Positions 2,606 to 20,092 of a DNA stretch of 21,855 bases are shown here, in pieces; position 1 is the first letter of the stretch; the number at the start of each line of letters is the position of its first letter. Both the position numbers and the translations under genes were made by a program. The notes beneath the pieces are model-generated. The model saw nothing but the letters and a program-made list of their open reading frames with translations. It ran no database searches and was not told where the DNA came from. This DNA is from a virus. The DNA lies in IMG/VR virus record IMGVR_UViG_3300046012_000059, positions 1-21,855 of that record; one strand, given 5' to 3'.

Positions 2606-3997
2606 ATGGCATTCTTTGGCCGCATCATCGAAACGATCCTCGCGCGCCGGGTAACGTCGGAACCGGCGTATCCGGTGTCCCATCGTGTTCCCTACAGTCA
2701 GCGCACGCTGGCGGGACCGGCGATGACCCCGGACACGGCCGTCACCGTCTCGGCGGTGTGGGCGTGCCTGCGCTACCTGTCGCAAACCGTGGCGGTGCTG
2801 CCATGGCACGTGATGAAGCTGGATTCGGCGACCGGCAAGAAGATCGCGGCTGCGACGCATCCGGTCGACTGGCTGCTCTATAAGCGGCCGAACCCCGAAT
2901 GGTCGTCGTTTCAGTTCCGCGAAACGCTCACCCATTGGGCGCTGCGGTGGGGCAACGGTTACGCTGAGATCGAGCGCGACAATCTGCGGCGCCCGATTGC
3001 ACTGTGGCCGATCCATCCCGATCGGGTGTGCCCCGAGCGCGACCCCGAGAGCGGCGCGCTGATCTACAAGGTTTCGCGCGGCACCGGCGGCGGCACCGGC
3101 GATGCAGTCACGCTCCAGGCCGATGAGATGTTCCACATCCGCGGCTTCGGCGAGGGGCCGATCGGCGTCAACGTCATTGCCTATGCTGCCGAGAGCTTGG
3201 GTTGGGCGAAGGCCGTTCAATTGTTCGGCGCCGCCTTCTTCGGCAACGGCATGAACATGGGCGGCTTCATCGAGGTCAAGAGCGGCCTCAAGCCCGCTGG
3301 ACTGAAGGCGCTCAAGGCCGAGCTGGCGGCGCTGTTCAAGGGCCCCCGCAAGGCACAGCAATGGCCGGTTCTCGACAACGGCATGACCGCAAAGCCCTTC
3401 GCCATCGAGCCCGACAAGGCGCAATTCATCGAAACCAACAAGCACCTCGTCGATGAGGTATGCCGCTGGTTCGGCGTCCCGCCGCACAAGGTCATGCACC
3501 TTGACCGAGCGACGTTCTCCAACATCGAGCATCAGGCGATCGAGGTCGTCGTCGACAGCATTCATCCGTGGGTGAAGCGGTTCGAGGACGAAGCCGATTT
3601 CAAGCTGTTCGGGCAGAATCGCCTGGGCTTCTACACGAAGATGAACATGCGCGCCCTCCTGCGCGGCGATTTCAAGACGCAGCAGGAAGGCTTCGAGGTC
3701 ATGCGCCGCAACGGCACCCTGAATGCGAACGAGTGGCGCGAACTCGTCGACATGGACCCGATGGACGACGAGGACGGCGGAAGCAAATACGTCATGCAGT
3801 CCAACAACACGACGCTCGAGATGATCGGCGAGCCGCCGGCGTTGCCCGGCGCGGGGGCTTCCGCCCCCGAAGAAGCGGAGGCTGCCCCCGGCGATCCCGG
3901 CGATCCGGCAGATCCCGATCAGCCCGCCCCCGAAGAAGCGGAGGCGATGGAGCGGCTGCAAATTCTCGCCGAGGCGTTGGTGCCGGAACATGTCTGA
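2606..3997 (+). CDS. Portal protein, HK97 family
   Basis: This forms the dodecameric ring at one capsid vertex through which DNA enters and to which the neck attaches. The 463 residues show family landmarks: [20 protein letters not shown] (48-67), [15 protein letters not shown] (85-99), [10 protein letters not shown] (116-125) and a wing/stem region ending near residue 400. The C-terminal 50 residues are Ala/Glu/Pro/Asp-rich and low in complexity, with APEEAEA written twice by a 22-base direct repeat. The start follows the terminase TAG without a gap and has CGAGG five bases upstream (2596-2600). The end overlaps the next gene by 8 bases. Confidence 0.95.
3861..3945 (+). repeat. 22-base in-frame direct repeat in the portal gene
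   Basis: Bases 3861-3882 and 3924-3945 are identical (core CCCCCGAAGAAGCGGAGG) and start 63 bases apart, exactly 21 codons. Both copies encode APEEAEA in the acidic, Pro-rich C-terminal tail of the portal. The spacer is itself repetitive (GATCCCGG / GATCCGGC units). The arrangement fits a recent in-frame slippage duplication that could change copy number without breaking the gene. Confidence 0.8.
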
Positions 3998-4829
3998 GCC
4001 CAAGATCATGGCGCGCGCGACCGCGCCGCGGCCGAAAAAGGAAGGCCCGTGGACTGCCGTCGAGCGGCTTTTCGGCGGCCTTTTCGCGCGAACCGATGCG
4101 CATGATGTGCGGATCGCCGCGATCGAGGCGCTCGCGCCGGTGCCCGGCCCGCAGGGTGCCCAGGGCGTGCCTGGTCCGCAGGGTATTGCCGGCGAGATCG
4201 GCCCCGCCGGTGCGCCCGGCATCGCTGGCCGTCAGGGTTTGCCCGGAGATCCGGGCCCACAGGGCGAGCGTGGCGAGATCGGCCCGCGCGGCGAAGTCGG
4301 CCCCCAGGGCAGCGACGGTCGTGAGGGGCCTGTGGGACCGCGCGGCGAACACGGCCTGCGGGGGGAGCGCGGGGAGCCTGGCCGCGACGGCCGCGACGGC
4401 GTGGGCCTCGCCCGCGCGTGGGTTGCCGACGGCATCCTCCACATCGAATTGACGAACGGCGTCACCGCGACGCTCGGCAACGTCGTCGGCCCGCAGGGGC
4501 TTCAAGGCGATCGAGGGCCGCAGGGTGCGCCGGGCGAGACTGGCCCCTCGGGGCCGATGGGGCCGCAGGGTGACGTCGGCCCGCAGGGGCCGATGGGCGA
4601 GATTGGTCCGCAGGGCGTCCGCGGCCCGAAAGGCGCCCCCGGAGTGCGCGGCGAAAAGGGCGATCCCGGAGATGTCGGGCCGCTGGGGCCGCGGGGTCCA
4701 CAGGGCGACGCGGCGATCGAGGTTCTCAGCGAATACGGCGCAAGCCTGACCGCCGAGACGCTGGACAACATCAGGATCTTCGAACTATCGATCGCGGGTG
4801 AGCGTATCCGCGTTCTGGCGCTCGATTGA
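3990..4829 (+). CDS. Collagen-like virion protein
   Basis: The 279-residue protein has a 50-residue N-terminal head (basic, then amphipathic, likely the virion anchor). An uninterrupted Gly-X-Y tract follows with glycine at every third position from 53 to 137. A 27-residue interruption (140-166, with a beta-rich pattern like [14 protein letters not shown]) comes next, then a second tract with 25 glycines from 167 to 239. The last 39 residues are non-collagenous ([10 protein letters not shown] to VLALD). X-Y positions favour PQ, PR, ER and DR, typical of bacterial and phage collagen-like stalks that form a trimeric triple helix. It sits between portal and prohead protease, overlapping the portal by 8 bases, so a head or neck fibre is more likely than a tail fibre. 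The exact role is unknown. Confidence 0.85.
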
Positions 4830-5685: not shown

Positions 5686-7092
5686 ATGAAGGCCAACAGC
5701 ATGTTGGCTGCCGCGCTGTTCGCCGGCAGCTTTCTCACGACGGGCAGCCTGCCGCGCATCCGCATGGATGCCGGCAATGTCGACGAGGCCATCACCCGCC
5801 TCCAGGCGCAGGTGGAGGAACTGAGCGATGCATCCGCGGCGCTCGTCGCCGCCGCCGATGCCGAAGGCCGCGATCTCACCGACGAGGAGGTCGCCACGAT
5901 CGAGGCGAACGCCGAGAAGGTGACGGGCCTCGACAAGCAGATCAAGGCCCGCTCGGCCCTCAAGCGTCCGGCCGCCGGGACGAACCGCAAGGTCGTGGAC
6001 GCCGTCGACGCCGACGGCAAGCCGCGCATCTCCGGCGGCGCCCGCCGCGAAGATCCCCGTGGCGGCTTTCGCAGCTTCGGCGAGTTCGCCGCGACCGTGC
6101 GGAATGGCTCCATCCGGCCGAGCGATCTCGACACCCGCCTGCGCAACTCCGCGACCACCTACGGCAACGAGGGCACCGGCACCGACGGCGGGTTCCTGAT
6201 CCCGCCGGAGTTCAGCCGCGAGATCATGACCAAGGTGATGGCGGAGGAGAACCTTCTCAACCGCTGCACGCCCCTGGTCGTGAGCGGCAACTCCATGACC
6301 ATCCCGAAGGACGAGACGACCCCGTGGCAGACCTCGGGCGGCATTCTGACCTACTGGGAAGGCGAGGGCGCGCCGACGCCGGCGAGCAAGCCCGCGATGG
6401 AGATGTCGACCCTCCGTCTCGCCAAGCTCACGGCCCTGGTGCCGATCTCCGACGAGCTCCTGGAGGATGCGACCGGCTTGGAGTCGTGGCTTCGCGCCAA
6501 GGCTCCGGCGAAGATGGCGGCGAAGATCAACACCGCCATCGTCAACGGCACGGGCGTCGGGCAGCCGCTCGGCATCCTGCGGTCGCCGAGCGTGGTTTCG
6601 GTCGCCAAGGAGACCAGCCAGGCGGCCGACTCGATCTACTTCGCCAACATCAACAAGATGTGGTCGCGGATGTACGCCTCCTGGCGCCGCAACGCGGTGT
6701 GGCTCATCAACCAGGACATCGAGCCGCAACTCGACGCGATGGCCTTCGATCCGGCGGCAACGAGCAAGGTGCCGGTCTATCTCCCGCCCGGCGGCGTCTC
6801 CAACACCCCCTACGCGACCCTCAAGGGACGCCCGGTGGTGCCGGTGGAAGCCTGCTCCACGCTCGGCGATCAGGGCGACATCATCCTCGTCGACCTGTCG
6901 CAGTATTGGGGGCTCACCAAGGCGGGCGGGGTCCGGACCGATACCTCAATCCACCTCTACTTCGACCAGTCTCTCACGACCTTCCGCTTCGTCTTCCGGA
7001 TGAACGGCATGCCGGCCTGGTCGAGCGCGATCACGCCCGAGAACGGGACTAACACCCGTTCCTGGGCCGTCACCCTCGACGATCGCGCCTAG
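5686..7092 (+). CDS. Major capsid protein, HK97 fold
   Basis: This builds the icosahedral head. The 468 residues start with a hydrophobic leader (1-23), followed by an Ala/Glu-rich coiled-coil delta domain acting as internal scaffold (about 30-95) and a charged linker (100-150). The mature domain probably begins near ATTYGNEGTGTDGGFLIP (156-173), where HK97-family proteins start after proteolysis. Later landmarks include YWEGEG, KLTALVPISDELLED and NGTGVGQPLGIL, all family-typical. ATG 5686 has GGAGA (5676-5680) five bases upstream. A start at Met27 (5764) would give a canonical delta-domain N-terminus but lacks a ribosome site. The flanking hairpins fit separate tuning of this most abundant product. 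Confidence 0.95.
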   Translation: MKANSMLAAALFAGSFLTTGSLPRIRMDAGNVDEAITRLQAQVEELSDASAALVAAADAEGRDLTDEEVATIEANAEKVTGLDKQIKARSALKRPAAGTNRKVVDAVDADGKPRISGGARREDPRGGFRSFGEFAATVRNGSIRPSDLDTRLRNSATTYGNEGTGTDGGFLIPPEFSREIMTKVMAEENLLNRCTPLVVSGNSMTIPKDETTPWQTSGGILTYWEGEGAPTPASKPAMEMSTLRLAKLTALVPISDELLEDATGLESWLRAKAPAKMAAKINTAIVNGTGVGQPLGILRSPSVVSVAKETSQAADSIYFANINKMWSRMYASWRRNAVWLINQDIEPQLDAMAFDPAATSKVPVYLPPGGVSNTPYATLKGRPVVPVEACSTLGDQGDIILVDLSQYWGLTKAGGVRTDTSIHLYFDQSLTTFRFVFRMNGMPAWSSAITPENGTNTRSWAVTLDDRA

Positions 7093-7208: not shown

Positions 7209-7709
7209 ATGAACAAGCACATTCTGGAGTTCCTCAACCCGTCGATCGGCTTCGGTCCGGTCAACATGGCCACCGGCGCCAACAGCGGCGACTACATCGA
7301 CCTCAAGGAGTACGAGGGCTGCCTCGTGCTGTTCGTGAAGGGCGTCGGCACCGCCGGCGAAGATCCCACCATCACGCTGCTGCAGGCGACGGACGTGGCG
7401 GCCGGCACCACCAAGGCGCTCAACTTCACCCGCGTCGACAAGAAGCAGGCGACCGCGCTTACCTCCGTCGGCACGTTCACCACCGTCACGCAGGCGGCGG
7501 CCAACACCTACACCAACGACACGCTGGGCGAACTGCAGGCGATCATCGCGATCGACGTCAAGGCCGAGAACCTCGACGTCGACGGCGGTTATACCTGCCT
7601 GCATGCCTCGGTGGCGGACGTCGGCACCACCAGTCAGCTCGGCATCGTGGTCATGATCCCCTACGGCCCGAAGTATGCGAAGGCGACGCTCGATTCGGCG
7701 ATCGTCTAA
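7209..7709 (+). CDS. Probable virion surface (decoration-like) protein
   Basis: This 166-residue protein has no signal peptide or membrane segment. It is rich in Thr, Ala, Gly and Val and looks all-beta, with Asn/Asp-Gly turns and patterns such as DYIDLKEYEGCLVLFVKGVG (28-47) and QLGIVVMIPYGPKYAKA near the end. Position directly after the major capsid gene, an individual ribosome site (GGAGA) and flanking strong hairpins suggest an abundant structural product such as a head decoration protein. I do not recognise a named family, so the assignment rests on context. An alternative is a minor capsid or head-fibre base protein. Confidence 0.6.
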   Translation: MNKHILEFLNPSIGFGPVNMATGANSGDYIDLKEYEGCLVLFVKGVGTAGEDPTITLLQATDVAAGTTKALNFTRVDKKQATALTSVGTFTTVTQAAANTYTNDTLGELQAIIAIDVKAENLDVDGGYTCLHASVADVGTTSQLGIVVMIPYGPKYAKATLDSAIV

Positions 7710-7751: not shown

Positions 7752-7784
7752 CCCTCTGCAATTCCGACGATGAGGAGTCCGACT

Positions 7785-8141
7785 GTGCCGAAATTCCTTT
7801 TTACGGAGACCCGCCATGTCAAGGGGGCGGCTCCGCTAGTCTACGAAAAGGGCAGCGTTCACGAGCTGCGCCCCGATCAGATCACCCGCTGGCTGTCGCG
7901 CGGCGCCGGGACAACCGATCCGCTCGAGATCGCCAAGGCGGCCGGCGCCGAGACTGCGACCGCCGGTCCCGCCGACATCCAGACCGGGGAGACCGGGGAG
8001 CCCGTCGAGCCGCGCATGGAAGAAACCGCGACCGGCTTCGATGTCTACAATTCCGCCGGCGTGAAGGTGAACGACCGTCCGCTGCGCAAGAAGGTCGCTG
8101 AGACCATGCTCGCCGGGCTGATCAAGGCCGCCGCGGAATGA
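7785..8141 (+). CDS. Small head-region protein of unknown function
   Basis: The 118-residue protein begins with a compact domain (PKFLFTETRHVKG, then YEKGSVHELRPDQITRWLSRGA), the pattern of small proteins found next to capsid genes in many phages. A Gly/Glu/Thr-rich linker (about 55-85) and a basic helical C-terminus follow. I chose GTG 7785 because AGGAG (7773-7777) is seven bases upstream. An ATG at 7770 would add MRSPT but has no ribosome site. Its stop overlaps the acyltransferase start as ATGA. No family is recognised with confidence; head assembly is inferred from position. Confidence 0.65.
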   Translation: MPKFLFTETRHVKGAAPLVYEKGSVHELRPDQITRWLSRGAGTTDPLEIAKAAGAETATAGPADIQTGETGEPVEPRMEETATGFDVYNSAGVKVNDRPLRKKVAETMLAGLIKAAAE

Positions 8142-8758
8142 TTTCGGCGCATGCCGTCGTCGACCCGCGGGTGCGCCTCGGCCCCGGCGTCGCGGTGGAC
8201 GCCTTCGCGGTCGTCGGCCGTGTCCCTGGTTTCATCGCCGCTCTGGCGCGGCGGCCGACGCTACGCGGCTGGCTGACCGTCGGGGAGAACACTCTCATCG
8301 GCCCGCACGCGATCCTCTACATGGGCTGCGAGATCGGCGCGGATTGTCTGATCGGCGACGGCGCCAGCATCCGCGAGGACGTGGTGATCGGCGACGGCTG
8401 CCTCGTCGGCCGCTATGTGACCGTCAATTATGAGACGTCGATCGGCTCGCGGGTTCGTATCATGGACGGCGCGCACATCACCGGCCGCTGCACGATTGAG
8501 GATGACGTGTTCATCGGAATGAACGTCACCACCTCCAACGACCGGCGCATCGACCCGCTCGATTATCGCTTCGATGATGCATCAGTTCGAGGCCCGGTCA
8601 TCCGCCGAGGCGCGTTCATCGGCTCGGGGGCGAACATCCTCCCAGGCGTCGAGATTGGCGAAGGCGCGGTCGTCGCCGCCGGCGCAATCGTCACGAAGAA
8701 CGTCCCGGCCCACGCTCGCGCATGTTCGCCCGCCGCCAGCATTCGGTTGCCGGGATGA
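8138..8758 (+). CDS. Hexapeptide-repeat acyltransferase (left-handed beta-helix)
   Basis: The 206-residue protein is built of repeated [I/V/L]-G-x4 turns from about residue 45 to 190 (VGENTLIGPHAIL, IGADCLIGDGA, VVIGDGCLVGR, CTIEDDVFIGMNV, IRRGAFIGSGANILPGVEIG). It ends in GAVVAAGAIVTKNVP, the hallmark end of sugar-nucleotide N-acetyltransferases of the WbpD/WlbB type. TTSNDRR (131-137) also matches the ND segment of that group. His113 in DGAHITG is a candidate catalytic base. Expected reaction: transfer of an acetyl or acyl group from CoA to an amino sugar. It is an accessory enzyme inside the head operon, coupled by ATGA on both sides with the small head protein and the glycosyltransferase. 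The real acceptor is unknown. Confidence 0.85.
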   Translation: MISAHAVVDPRVRLGPGVAVDAFAVVGRVPGFIAALARRPTLRGWLTVGENTLIGPHAILYMGCEIGADCLIGDGASIREDVVIGDGCLVGRYVTVNYETSIGSRVRIMDGAHITGRCTIEDDVFIGMNVTTSNDRRIDPLDYRFDDASVRGPVIRRGAFIGSGANILPGVEIGEGAVVAAGAIVTKNVPAHARACSPAASIRLPG

Positions 8759-9420
8759 ACGTCGTTTCGTTTCTCTCTCCGCGACCGCGCGACCCCCATT
8801 GGTCGCCGCATTACGACCAGTGCGTCGCAGCGCAGAAGATATCCTGCACGAAATTCGGTCTGCGGCAGATCGTCATCACCGACCCTGGCATCTCGTTCGG
8901 AGCGGCGGTTGAGACGTTCGAAGTGGATTTGCCTGCGGCTCTGATGCCGGCCCTCCTTGCCGGCCAGTTTGCCTATCTCAATAGTGCCGCCTTCGACGCC
9001 GACACCATCCTCACCGGCGTCGACTGCCTGATCGGGAAAGATCCGCGAGCCGTGTTCGATGGCGGCTCCGAAGATTGGGATGTGGCGGTCACCATTGGTC
9101 CGTTCTCCGATTGCCCACTTAATACCGGCGCGATTTTCTGCCGGCACGGCACCGGACCCGCCTTGGCCGAGATCTGGCGCGTCGCGCTGGCGGGCATGGG
9201 CAGCCGCTGGGGCGACGATCAGCGTGCGCTGGCGGGCGAATTGGGCTCTGCCCTCGACCCCGTCCGGACGCTCCGCAACGGCCTTCGCGTCGGCTATCTC
9301 CGCTGCGAGGAACACAATTGGGCGCCGGAGCATGAACGCGATCGGGTCGAGGCGACCGTCGTCCACTTCCGCGGCGCCCGCAAGGAATACATCGGCCGCT
9401 GGTGCGCGAGGTTCCTGTGA
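8755..9420 (+). CDS. Putative glycosyltransferase, GT-A fold (GT8-like)
   Basis: The 221-residue protein shows the sequential signature of small nucleotide-sugar transferases: FDADTIL with a D-x-D metal site (Asp81, Asp83), PLNTGAIF (121-128), a W...GDDQRAL segment (Trp152, Asp154-Gln156) and a late VVHFRGARK (202-210) resembling the His-x2-Gly-x2-Lys end of GT8/GT32 enzymes. It would transfer a sugar from a nucleotide donor; donor and acceptor cannot be read from sequence. ATG 8755 overlaps the acyltransferase stop as ATGA; an upstream in-frame ATG (8722) lies inside that gene and is less likely. It is cytoplasmic, with no membrane segment. Confidence 0.75.
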   Translation: MNVVSFLSPRPRDPHWSPHYDQCVAAQKISCTKFGLRQIVITDPGISFGAAVETFEVDLPAALMPALLAGQFAYLNSAAFDADTILTGVDCLIGKDPRAVFDGGSEDWDVAVTIGPFSDCPLNTGAIFCRHGTGPALAEIWRVALAGMGSRWGDDQRALAGELGSALDPVRTLRNGLRVGYLRCEEHNWAPEHERDRVEATVVHFRGARKEYIGRWCARFL

Positions 9421-10064
9421 ACGAATCGCGTGAGCGCGAGTTCTGGACACCGGAGCCGATCTGGCTCGGCCGGACATGCTTCCTCCTCGGCGGTGGGCCG
9501 AGCTTGACGCAAGCGGACTGCGATCGGCTCGAGGGCCTTCCGGCGATGGCGATCAACTCGTCGCACCTCAAGGCACCCTGGGCGCCGGTGCTGTTCTTCA
9601 CCGACAGCGGCTGGTATGAGCGGCACCGCGAGGTGGTCCGCGATTGGCCAGGGATCGTCGTTTCGGTGTCGCGCACCGCCAAGCGAGAACTGCCCGACAC
9701 GGTCAAGCGCGTCGAAGGCATCCACAGCCCCGATGGCTTCCCGCCGGTGGGGACGCCGGCGATCCGCCAGGGCCGGTCCTCCGGTCATACCGGCGTCAGC
9801 CTCGCAGCGGCGCTGGGGGCCAATCGCATCGTGCTTCTCGGCTACGACATGCGCGCCGTCGACGGCCGCACGCACCACCACGACGACTACGTCCACAACG
9901 GCAACGATGCCGAGGTCTACGCCCGCGAGTTCGTGCCGATGTTCGCCGGCTGGAACGCCGCCGCGCTGAAATCCGGGATCGAGATCGTCAATGCGACCCC
10001 CGGCTCGGCCCTGACCGAGTTCCCATTCGTCACCCTGGACGAGATTCTATGCGAAGCATCCTGA
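9417..10064 (+). CDS. GGGPSL-motif protein, DUF115/MAF/GT42-like putative glycosyltransferase
   Basis: The 215-residue protein carries FLLGGGPSL (22-30), a Rossmann-like nucleotide-binding start shared with DUF115 (motility accessory factor) and GT42 sialyltransferase-type proteins. Further landmarks are FFTDSGWY (60-67), SGHTGVSLAAALGANRIVLLGYDM (122-145), a His triplet (153-155) and VNATPGSAL (191-199). Similar GGGPSL proteins recur in alphaproteobacterial prophages with uncertain function. I chose GTG 9417: it overlaps the upstream stop as GTGA and has GAGG (9408-9411) five bases before it; GTG 9402 is an alternative. Being third in the cassette, it may act on the same glycan. Transferase activity is inference. 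Confidence 0.7.
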   Translation: MNESREREFWTPEPIWLGRTCFLLGGGPSLTQADCDRLEGLPAMAINSSHLKAPWAPVLFFTDSGWYERHREVVRDWPGIVVSVSRTAKRELPDTVKRVEGIHSPDGFPPVGTPAIRQGRSSGHTGVSLAAALGANRIVLLGYDMRAVDGRTHHHDDYVHNGNDAEVYAREFVPMFAGWNAAALKSGIEIVNATPGSALTEFPFVTLDEILCEAS

Positions 10065-10690
10065 CCGTTACGTCGGCCGCGACGGATCATGCCCTGACGA
10101 CGCTGGAACGGTTCAAGACCGACCTCGCGATCACCGGCACGAACGCAGACCGCGACACCGCGATCGAGGATCTGATCGACGACATCTCCGATGCGGTCGA
10201 TTCCTATCTCGGCCGCACCCTGGCGAAGGAAACCGTCAGCGAGTCCTTCCGTCTCGATCCCTACGAAGTGCCGGAAGCCTTGCCCCTTACGCGCTGGCCT
10301 GTGGCTTCCATCACCTCCGTCACGGTCGATGGGACTTTGGTCGATGCGTCGGAGTATGAGATCGACGCGGAAACCGGCCAGCTTTATCGGCTCAACGCGA
10401 GCGGATATCGCTGGGCCTGGGTCTCCTGCAAGGCGACCGTCGTCGTCTATGTCGCGGGCTACGTCCTGCCGGCAGAGTCGAACCGAACCCTGCCGAAGGA
10501 TATCGAGCTCGGCGCGCTGGCATGGACCCGCAGCGTGTGGTTCGCGCGCTCCCGCGACCCGCTGGTCAAGGTCGAGGACATACCGGGCGTCGAGCGGCTT
10601 GAGTATTGGGTCGGAGGCTTGGGCGGGGACGCCGGGCCGCCGCCAGACGTTGTGGCGCTGATCGCGCCCTATCGCCGGATCGCGCTGTGA
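10049..10690 (+). CDS. Head-tail connector protein, phiE125 gp8 / HK97 gp6-like
   Basis: This neck protein docks beneath the portal. The 213 residues match the longer phiE125 gp8-type pattern: an N-terminal four-helix part (LERFKTDLAI, then AIEDLIDDISDAVDSYLGRTL at about 44-64), a LPLTRWPVASITSVTVDG segment (about 81-98) and a beta-rich part with VVVYVAGYVLPAE, followed by a helix (PKDIELGALAWTRSVWF). The frame is open upstream, but ATG 10049 gives the family N-terminus and a 16-base overlap with the previous gene. A weak GGACGAGA lies upstream. The next gene starts within its stop. Confidence 0.85.
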   Translation: MRSILTVTSAATDHALTTLERFKTDLAITGTNADRDTAIEDLIDDISDAVDSYLGRTLAKETVSESFRLDPYEVPEALPLTRWPVASITSVTVDGTLVDASEYEIDAETGQLYRLNASGYRWAWVSCKATVVVYVAGYVLPAESNRTLPKDIELGALAWTRSVWFARSRDPLVKVEDIPGVERLEYWVGGLGGDAGPPPDVVALIAPYRRIAL

Positions 10691-17727: not shown

Positions 17728-19562
17728 TTCCGGGAGCACTTCCCGTAGCCGTAGCGGCACTCGCGTCATGGCCGGCGTTGCTGGGCAGCCTCGCAGGTGC
17801 TTTCCCTGTGGCCGTCAGTGCCCATGCTCCCGCACCGATCGCAGCGCATCCGATCGGCTCGGCACCAATTGCGGGGTGGCCGAGTCTGGCCGACCTCCGG
17901 GCACCCTCTGTCAAAGAAGAATCTCTTGTCGACGACGCGACATGCCTTGTCGAGATCGATGTATTCGAGGGCGGCGGGACGACGATCCTAAAGCCTCAGC
18001 CGATCGCCTACGGTCCCATTGCATCCTTCCCTTACGGCTCGGTGATCCCGGTTGGCGATACGACGCTCAAATATTCGGATACCAACTGGCTCGGCGAGCC
18101 CACGGACCCGGACAGGCCGAATGCGGTCTATCTCGGGCGCGCCGTGACGCCTATCCAGTTCGAGCGCGACGCACCCATTCTCCCCGAGCAGCAAAGCCGG
18201 CTCCAGGCGCAGTTCGGTCAGATTGTTATTGCTGCGGGCGATGGCGTGCTCGATTCGGCAATCAAGAACTTTGCCGTGGCTGGGCGAAGCGTTCGCGTTT
18301 ATCGCGGCCCACGGTCAACCCCAACGACGGCGAATTTCTCCAGCTTCAGTCAAATCCTGTCGGCCCTTGCTACCGGGTGGACGCAGGACGAAAACCAAGT
18401 GACGATCGATCTCAGGGACACCGGGTTCCGGCTCGATCAGCCGCTACAGTCCAATCTCTACGCCGGGACCGGAGGAGCCGAGGGCGATTCGCAATGGCTC
18501 GGCAAGCCGAAGCCGTGCCTCTTCGGTTTCCGCCGGAACATCACCCCCGATCTGATCGATACCGGGAATCTGGTCTACCGCGTTCACTTCCGGGCGATGC
18601 AGGAGGTGACGGCCGTGCGCGATCTCGGCGCCGCCCTCACGTTCAGCGACGATTACGATACCTACGCCGATCTCATCGCCGCCAGTCTTTCGGGCGGTGA
18701 TTACGCGACCTGCCTTGCCGATGGGCTTCTGCGGATCGAGACATCTGCCACACAACTCACGGTCGATGCCAAGGGGGATAACACCGGGGGCTATGTCGAT
18801 ACCCACGCAGGGATAGCGCGACGCGTTCTCTCCGATATGGCGGCTCTTAATCCATCGGATTACATCGCCTCCTCGTTTGGTGGGTGGCCGGGTGGAACTG
18901 CGGGCCTGTTCTACTCCTCCTCCGATGCTCCGACATGCGCCGACGCCCTGGATCGTCTTTCAGCCTCAATCGCCGGGTGGTGGGGGCCGCAGCGGGACGG
19001 CCGCATTGTCGGCGGTGCCCTGTTCGATCCATCGGCGTTCGGGGCCGATCTCTTCCTCGCGCTTGAGGATTTCATAACGCTGTCCGATATCCGCGGGTCG
19101 GTGCAGCTCCTGACGCTGCCGACCGTGGGATCGGGGACGGCCCTGCCGCGCTATAGGCAACGCGTCGGCTACCAGCAGATTGAGACGGTGCAGTCGGGCT
19201 CCGACCTTGCCGGGACCGTTTCGGCTTCGGACCGGGCCTATTACAGCCAGGAATCCCGCTCGGTCACGGCAATCGATACGACGGTGCAAACCCGCTATCC
19301 GCTGGCCGCCGATTATCCCGTTCTGATCTCGCTGTTCGACGCCTCGGCCAATGCGCAAACCCTGGCTGACACGGTGCTTGGTTTGCACAAGCACGAGCGC
19401 CGCATGTTCCGCGTGCCGTCGGGTGGACGTGGTTTTCTGGTCGATCTCGGCAAGGTGGTGAACCTCGCCTATCCCCGCTACGGGATCGAGAACGGGCAGA
19501 ACTTCGTCGTCGTTGGCACGATCGAGGACGCGAATGATTGCGAGCTAATCCTATGGGGTTAA
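17724..19562 (+). CDS. Tail tip / baseplate hub protein
   Basis: The 612-residue protein follows the tape measure directly (ATGA overlap; ribosome site GAAGG 17712-17716). The first 55 residues are Ala/Pro-rich with short x-P-I-G/A units (AAHPIGSAPIAGWP), a feature of tail tip proteins in alphaproteobacterial prophages. A beta-rich body follows, with repeated aromatic-Gly patterns, and the end EDANDCELILWG resembles the final strand of phage tail hub domains. No peptidase or lysozyme motif is seen. It could combine distal-tail and hub roles, as no separate Dit or Tal gene is visible; this is inference from order. Confidence 0.7.
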   Translation: MIPGALPVAVAALASWPALLGSLAGAFPVAVSAHAPAPIAAHPIGSAPIAGWPSLADLRAPSVKEESLVDDATCLVEIDVFEGGGTTILKPQPIAYGPIASFPYGSVIPVGDTTLKYSDTNWLGEPTDPDRPNAVYLGRAVTPIQFERDAPILPEQQSRLQAQFGQIVIAAGDGVLDSAIKNFAVAGRSVRVYRGPRSTPTTANFSSFSQILSALATGWTQDENQVTIDLRDTGFRLDQPLQSNLYAGTGGAEGDSQWLGKPKPCLFGFRRNITPDLIDTGNLVYRVHFRAMQEVTAVRDLGAALTFSDDYDTYADLIAASLSGGDYATCLADGLLRIETSATQLTVDAKGDNTGGYVDTHAGIARRVLSDMAALNPSDYIASSFGGWPGGTAGLFYSSSDAPTCADALDRLSASIAGWWGPQRDGRIVGGALFDPSAFGADLFLALEDFITLSDIRGSVQLLTLPTVGSGTALPRYRQRVGYQQIETVQSGSDLAGTVSASDRAYYSQESRSVTAIDTTVQTRYPLAADYPVLISLFDASANAQTLADTVLGLHKHERRMFRVPSGGRGFLVDLGKVVNLAYPRYGIENGQNFVVVGTIEDANDCELILWG

Positions 19563-20092
19563 ATGTGGCCACGCAGTTCATCTGCCGCCAGTGCGAGCGG
19601 CCATTCGTGTCTCCATCCAGAGCAAAGCGAGCCCTCTTTTGCTCGCGTAAATGTTGGAGCGAGCAAATGAAGACGCGGACCACCAGTGTGTGTTTGGCCT
19701 GCGGTAATCGGTTTAGAAGCAGGAATCATGACCGAGTTTGTTGCTCCAGAAAATGCGGGCAGGCGCACCGACGTGCGAAATACGACAAGCACGCTGCGGC
19801 CATTGCGCGGTTCTGGTCCAATGTAAAAACGGGCGAAGGCGGCGATGCATGCTGGATATGGCAAGGAGCAGTTAGCGGAGACGGTTACGGAACGCTGTGG
19901 AACGGCAAATGCCAAGTCGGCGCTCATCGGTTTTCTTATGAATTGAACATCGGCCAACTGACGGATGGGAGATGGGCACTCCATAGATGCGACGTTCCGC
20001 TCTGTGTGCGTCCTGGACACCTATATGCCGGCACGCAAAGCGATAACCAGCGTGATCGCTGGGATCGTACCGGCTTTCGCAGGGTGGCGTAG
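19553..20092 (+). CDS. HNH homing endonuclease with two zinc fingers
   Basis: The 179-residue protein starts with two similar zinc-binding units: Cys11/14...Cys30/34 and Cys47/50...Cys64/68, each ending CSRKC, likely for DNA binding. The HNH nuclease follows: WIWQGAVSGDGYGTL (101-115), GAHRFSYE (His125), LHRCDVPLCVRPGHL (143-157, His144 and His156) and GTQSDNQRD with Asn165. This is the arrangement of free-standing phage homing nucleases that cut sequence lacking the gene and spread by repair. Base composition is visibly more AT-rich than the neighbours, and it interrupts the tail tip gene run, both signs of acquisition. ATG 19553 overlaps the previous gene by 10 bases; GTG 19565 is an alternative. 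No clear ribosome site. Confidence 0.88.
   Translation: MGLNVATQFICRQCERPFVSPSRAKRALFCSRKCWSEQMKTRTTSVCLACGNRFRSRNHDRVCCSRKCGQAHRRAKYDKHAAAIARFWSNVKTGEGGDACWIWQGAVSGDGYGTLWNGKCQVGAHRFSYELNIGQLTDGRWALHRCDVPLCVRPGHLYAGTQSDNQRDRWDRTGFRRVA

Follow-up and report, generated by a model that had tools for sequence, protein, structure and literature searches.

What do three predicted sugar-handling enzymes contribute to a phage when their genes are set between those for the capsid and the head-tail connector? The question is raised by IMG/VR record IMGVR_UViG_3300046012_000059, a virus record of 21,855 bases (the window, that is, the whole record) whose plus strand carries a siphovirus-like head-tail operon. 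The trio, all on that strand, comprises a hexapeptide (LbH) acyltransferase resembling sugar N-/O-acetyltransferases (hexapep, 8138..8758, 206 aa), a predicted glycosyltransferase (GT) of GT-A fold (GT8l, 8755..9420, 221 aa) and a single-domain Maf/GT42-like GT with a GTG start (GGGPSL, 9417..10064, 215 aa). The three genes probably form a cassette of enzymes, expressed late and exchanged horizontally, whose target is a virion protein; the post-capsid protein and the capsid protein are the most likely acceptors. This reading is favoured because the genes are coupled within the head operon, the predicted folds are shared with protein GTs, the genes co-occur, fuse and are under selection, the same site holds other modifying enzymes in relatives, and mycobacteriophages provide a precedent.

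The operon runs in the order terminase, portal, collagen-like gene, ClpP-type protease, HK97 capsid, post-capsid protein, gp8, trio, connector and tail genes. The left border of the trio is gp8, a small head-operon protein (7770..8141, +), and the right border is the head-tail connector (10049..10690, +; PF05135 at 24.0 bits, phrog_442 at 1.4e-28). The open reading frames (ORFs) and overlaps described in the sequence-only reading, an initial annotation made without database searches, are borne out: ATGA joins the gp8 stop to the hexapep ATG (8138-8141) and the hexapep stop to the GT8l start (8755-8758), GTGA joins the GT8l stop to the GGGPSL start (9417-9420), and the connector ATG at 10049 produces a 16-base overlap with the end of GGGPSL, for which an in-frame GTG at 9402 is an alternative start. 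Since the trio genes overlap their neighbours, a private promoter would not fit. This coupling supports the earlier proposal that the trio is made with the head proteins, presumably late in infection.

Hexapep scores 110.6 bits against Pfam PF00132 (cut-off 27), and its closest solved chains are the N-acetyltransferases 7s43, WxcM-like 4mzu, the lipopolysaccharide (LPS) acetyltransferase 3mqg (WbpD/WlbB-like) and QdtC 3fs8. All four match at E values from 1e-20 to 1e-15. The hexapeptide repeats are thus present above the Pfam cut-off, and the WbpD-like label of the sequence-only reading corresponds to one of these four matches.

For both putative transferases, structure prediction and fold comparison returned transferase folds, GT-A for GT8l and Maf-like for GGGPSL. 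The AlphaFold2 (AF2) model of GT8l (predicted local distance difference test, pLDDT, 87.6) matched the PBCV-1 capsid GT 2p6w best in Foldseek (E 3.5e-8), followed by LgtC (6.7e-8) and glycogenin, while VIA gave glycogenin Z 14.8, LH3 14.8 and the PBCV-1 GT 14.7, a near-tie at Z 14.6-14.8. The protein-glycosylating glycogenin, LH3 and Skp1 GTs are thus among the best fold matches, and the predicted structure has the GT-A fold of the GT8 family. NTG, W-G-x-D-Q (GDDQ-type) and HFRGxRK motifs are invariant across eight aligned GT homologues, the last supplying the C-terminal H-x-x-G-x-x-K of GT8. The canonical metal-site position reads G-x-D in all eight (GVDC in the window, GADC in homologues), and the DAD near the metal site of the window enzyme is not conserved among them. 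No Pfam family was matched at E 0.1, so that the enzyme is classed as GT8-like only; no PHROG family was matched either, tblastn against an annotated phage collection found no match, and a sequence search of the PDB gave a chance match only. Its original description as a GT8-like enzyme with D-x-D, NTG and HF-G-K motifs keeps the fold and the last two motifs and loses both the D-x-D and any Pfam GT8 match. Two GT subfamilies were distinguished, A (the window type, GT8l/GT8A) and a distant B (GT8B, phrog_1962), which hhalign profile comparison relates at 93.7% probability as distant relatives.

The GGGPSL model (pLDDT 94.4) is matched in VIA by the Maf GT 5mu5 at Z 15.4 over 192 of 215 residues, with the next matches about 4 Z lower: the GT42 sialyltransferases CstII/CstI (Z 10-11) and HPPK MptE pyrophosphokinase (Z 10.8). 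The predicted structure therefore has the catalytic-domain fold common to Maf/MptE-like and GT42 enzymes. GGGPSL matches phrog_4603, "alpha-2,3-sialyltransferase", at 2e-45, and 48 of 57 GGGPSL homologues match PF01973 at E 0.01; the window protein lies below the curated PF01973 cut-off (24.3 bits vs 34.6). The donor-site motifs GxGPS, SG and LxGxD, aligned to those of CstII, are invariant or nearly so in 57 sequences. The assignment of this protein from its letters to a DUF115/MAF/GT42-like class has held up on fold and motifs alike. Ferritin matches of the GGGPSL profile were set aside as chance, ferritin not being listed by fold comparison.

Relatives were collected by GGGPSL, GT and capsid searches, and the major capsid protein (MCP), which has 504 relatives in all, was used for the relative survey. 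One MCP (L007) was left out as its translation holds a stop; this capsid frame (L007:4320-5624) has an in-frame stop upstream of 4575 in an otherwise intact-looking phage, which may be an assembly error, recoding or a real lesion. Among 60 distinct relatives with sequence spanning post-capsid protein to connector, all three genes occur in 17, a GT8-type gene with GGGPSL in 4, GGGPSL alone of the three in 10 and none by these profiles in 29. Hexapep was never seen without both partners (0 of 60), and the three genes remain together even as their order varies (hex-GT-GGG or GGG-hex-GT). The set is therefore gained and lost largely as a unit, the acyltransferase in no case here independently of its partners; GGGPSL also occurs alone or beside other enzymes. 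A search with subfamily A retrieved 22 distinct GT8l domains, of which 21 have hexapep on the same fragment, within 18 bases in 14 cases, and the sole domain without it has just 215 bases of sequence available on that side. Seven distinct phages have a GT8l with a long extension at its C-terminus, which matches PF01973 (MptE/Maf-like) in L172 and L190 (1.6e-14 and 3.9e-12) and the GGGPSL profile in L172, L183 and L190; the L172 fusion homologue passes the PF01973 cut-off at 54.5 bits. At 12 loci of this fused-GT lineage, hexapep and GT8l lie directly behind an MCP from another family (phrog_9953) together with a virion structural protein (phrog_29386), and the post-capsid proteins of the two capsid lineages look unrelated, judged by their alignments alone. 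Fusion and near-strict adjacency across two capsid lineages are strong evidence that the three genes act together. Pairwise dN/dS (nonsynonymous to synonymous rate ratio) of cassette genes ranges from 0.07 to 0.49, as under purifying selection, and values well below 1, together with recurrence, place the trio beyond chance. The carriers are many tailed phages, mostly from soil and water bacteria. Three loci (L193:4976-8506, L195:5123-8149 and L197:4647-10363) show yet another gene order, terminase - hexapep - two GT8l - GT8B - portal, and no GGGPSL gene was found on them.

The site between gp8 and the connector is variable. In three relatives (L070, L081, L148) it is empty, with some 10-13 bases between gp8 and the connector, and two more (L065, L066) likewise have no enzymes there. 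L143, which the capsid tree places as sister to the window (support 92/93, not starred), is without the trio; a single 126-aa ORF, with no enzyme-like match by eye, occupies the site. FkbM or other methyltransferases fill the site in L145, L157, L064, L111, L094, L115 and L125, the last also holding GT2 and GT1-type enzymes, and a Stealth_CR2-like protein lies in L122. Sulfotransferase-family genes lie in the head-operon island at L145:13355-13972 and L113:8125-8781 (PF13469 just below cut-off; PF03567 69 bits), and pyruvyltransferase-like genes occur in L098-L100, L105 and L110, recognised by a profile to L005, which itself matches PF04230 just below cut-off. A bolder generalisation, offered tentatively, is that a widespread head-operon "glyco-hotspot", located from the post-capsid protein to the connector, swaps transferring, acylating, sulfating, methylating and pyruvylating enzymes to yield a strain-specific protein-bound glycan coat. 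The trio would be one stable set shared across capsid lineages, with P1 pmgO/pmgP/pmgQ as a relative so far overlooked. Some islands hold, in place of enzymes or next to them, long repetitive or non-enzymatic proteins (L115:14986-16626, L124:8655-10799, L116:7485-9326, L083:13844-15499), perhaps head fibres.

Which virion protein would be modified? Candidates are the HK97-type MCP (5686..7092, +; Pfam Phage_capsid 171.5 bits) and the post-capsid protein directly 3' of it (7209..7709, +), whose decoration-protein-like role is suggested by position and family alignment. An S/T/N-rich insertion of 10-12 residues (e.g. STSDSPASNDTFNTTNGTWTN) is present in the post-capsid protein of 10 of 10 distinct GT8B-trio phages and of no GT8A-trio or empty-site phage; it also occurs in L157 (two GT8B) and L015 (GGGPSL only), and is absent from L145, where GT8B is present. 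L067 combines insertion and GT8B outside the main clade of the capsid tree. As this loop tracks one cassette subtype, it points to the post-capsid protein or the capsid rather than the collagen-like protein as acceptor, a suggestive indication only. The sequence-only reading had proposed a virion protein, either a collagen-like fibre or a surface protein, as the target; glycosylation of a virion protein remains the best reading, and the collagen-like protein as specific partner is rejected as a general rule, its presence not tracking the cassette. The collagen-like gene of the window (3990..4829, +; Pfam Collagen) has counterparts in the same place, between portal and head protease, in most close relatives.

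The scheme that we infer, with its catalytic activities, acceptor, sequence of reactions, sugar donors, late timing and advantage to the phage, would run as follows. Late in infection, the GT-A and Maf-like enzymes would draw on host nucleotide sugars in the cytosol; one transferase would attach a first sugar to a Ser, Thr or comparable side chain in a head protein and the other would extend or cap it, while the hexapeptide enzyme would acylate the sugar, either before transfer as nucleotide sugar or afterwards. Exchange of enzyme sets at the hotspot would then make the sugar coat differ between phages, and the phage may gain by evading receptors or antibodies, by a more stable particle or by altered adsorption. 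Transmembrane (TM) segments were not found in the trio proteins, which fits cytosolic protein glycosylation. No CTP_transf_3 domain for phage CMP-sugar synthesis was detected in 11 records, the positive control being detected, so the donor would come from the host, and NeuB is present in four of seven host genomes.

Several observations weigh against modification of a virion protein by the trio, or limit the form it could take. Support comes from genes and predicted folds, and sugar on the virions remains a prediction. The replacement of DxD by GxD in a GT-A enzyme could signal changed or lost activity, although the GT-A enzyme 4ayj, metal-independent by its PDB title, is also among the Foldseek matches, so that a GxD enzyme is not necessarily dead, and purifying selection speaks against loss. 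A search for NeuB came back empty in Mesorhizobium loti DSM 2626, a lysogen whose prophage contains the cassette; nonulosonic acid is therefore rejected as a universal donor, and, with no phage CMP-sugar synthetase detected either, CMP-Kdo or some other donor may serve the Maf-like enzyme. On the tree, the association of insertion with GT8B is underpowered (about two independent agreeing pairs, sign test p 0.5). Finally, the GGGPSL family also occurs outside head operons, in Caulobacter jumbo phages and P1.

The main rival places the sugar on the host surface: the trio would change LPS or some other sugar used as receptor, during late infection or lysogeny, and thereby prevent superinfection or the wasting of progeny on cell debris. 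GTs and O-acetyltransferases are the textbook enzymes of seroconversion, the seroconverting phage D3 (PMC12373910) is among the relatives that have a GGGPSL gene, and three cassette carriers (L144 in Mesorhizobium loti DSM 2626, L146, and L147 in Bradyrhizobium sp. YR681) sit in bacterial genomes as apparent prophages. However, signs of gtr-type lysogenic conversion, with its flippase and membrane GT, are lacking: GtrA (PF04138) was not found in 20 virus records, some of them fragments, with a positive control detected, and TM segments are lacking as noted above. Coupling in the head operon leaves no space for separate expression in a lysogen, placement behind capsid genes is repeated in two unrelated capsid lineages, and the best fold match of GGGPSL is a protein GT, all of which makes host-surface modification unlikely. 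Specific glycosylation of the collagen-like protein, as LH3-type enzymes do for collagen, is rather less likely still. The LH3 collagen GT domain (VIA Z 14.8) and mimivirus R699 (Z 14.2) are among the top matches of GT8l and most of the close clade carries a collagen-like gene, but LH3 lies within 0.2 Z of glycogenin and the PBCV-1 GT, a tie. Collagen-like genes are also present in cassette-free L065, L081, L148 and L143, and two trio phages, L022 (record of 75.7 kb) and L131 (48.5 kb), gave no collagen match, though these records may be fragments.

Two further possibilities do without a protein-bound glycan. GGGPSL, perhaps with its partners, could be mainly a head-assembly or packaged protein that reuses an enzyme fold, as the deposited names of PAJU2 ORF010 and a Klebsiella phage Eowyn gene ("structural protein") and of P7 hdmA-D ("head morphogenesis") would have it. 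These labels show no experiment in their records, the donor-site motifs are conserved, the gene is absent from many relatives, and P1 pmgO, pmgP and pmgQ are non-essential by CRISPR interference (CRISPRi) and by deletion (PMC10695390), leaving this reading very doubtful. The P1 result is as expected of a decorating function, but equally of many others. Hypermodification of DNA or nucleotides, in which the transferases would decorate phage bases as in T4-like or TET-phage systems, seems the most remote of the alternatives. Known phage clusters do join GTs with other sugar-tailoring enzymes for DNA. DNA of Shewanella phage Thanatos is described as carrying a pentose (PMC12838424). The trio, however, is placed among head genes rather than replication genes, and no Tet_JBP match was found in 31 virus records, a weak negative as the positive control was also silent.

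Modification of a virion protein by phage enzymes has relatives among described systems. In mycobacteriophages Che8, Corndog and Myrna, phage GTs glycosylate virion proteins, capsid and tail tube, as two reports state (PMC12363180; PMC11256854). Phage-encoded GTs are common to both, the window system having two predicted GT folds, whereas the accessible descriptions of mycobacteriophages include no acyltransferase/Maf-like trio or post-capsid hotspot, and in F1 phage Maravista they place the GTs near the genome 3' end rather than in the head operon. The PBCV-1 capsid GT (2p6w/2p72/2p73), a small single-domain enzyme of a virus known to glycosylate its own capsid, shares the GT-A fold with GT8l; at 13% identity the fold alone is common, and PBCV-1 is a eukaryotic virus. 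Maf GT 5mu5 shares fold and PF01973 family with GGGPSL, but the phage protein is a single domain without the flanking Maf domains. In Pseudomonas phages D3 (orf7) and PAJU2 (ORF010) a GGGPSL-family gene lies beside the head-tail adaptor, as in the window, but neither GT8l nor hexapep accompanies it, and in PAJU2 ORF011 and then ORF012, a methyltransferase, follow downstream. The P1/P7 operon pmgO-pmgP-ppp-pmgQ (= hdmB-hdmC-ppp-hdmD) encodes two GGGPSL-family proteins (pmgO 1.6e-40, pmgP 8e-13) and a GT8B-family protein (pmgQ 6e-36). Unlike the window cassette it has no hexapeptide enzyme, has a protein phosphatase in between, is C1-controlled and lies away from the capsid gene, and P7 hdmD/P1 pmgQ keeps an intact DxD (DLD) in place of the GxD of the window GT. 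Phage P7 hdmB, hdmC and hdmD lie at L169:3944-6502.

Phage-encoded virion glycosylation is thus already known as a kind, while this enzyme set and its insertion hotspot appear to be undescribed; no paper on either was found in the literature searched, which left aside most subscription papers. If the proposal is correct, variable, chemically tailored virion glycan coats would be common in many proteobacterial phages rather than a mycobacteriophage peculiarity. This would matter for how phages bind receptors, for how antibodies and predators recognise them and for the stability of the particle. P1 pmgO, pmgP and pmgQ, listed only under "putative morphogenetic functions", would gain a testable function, as would the phrog_4603 "sialyltransferase" family found in D3-like phages. 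The homologues in D3 (orf7) and P1 (pmgO/pmgP/pmgQ) make laboratory tests easy. Two nuclease-like genes could help such modules move: an HNH endonuclease-like gene in the tail region of the window (19538-20092) and, inside the L002 island, a gene at L002:6259-7050 that reads by eye as GIY-YIG-like.

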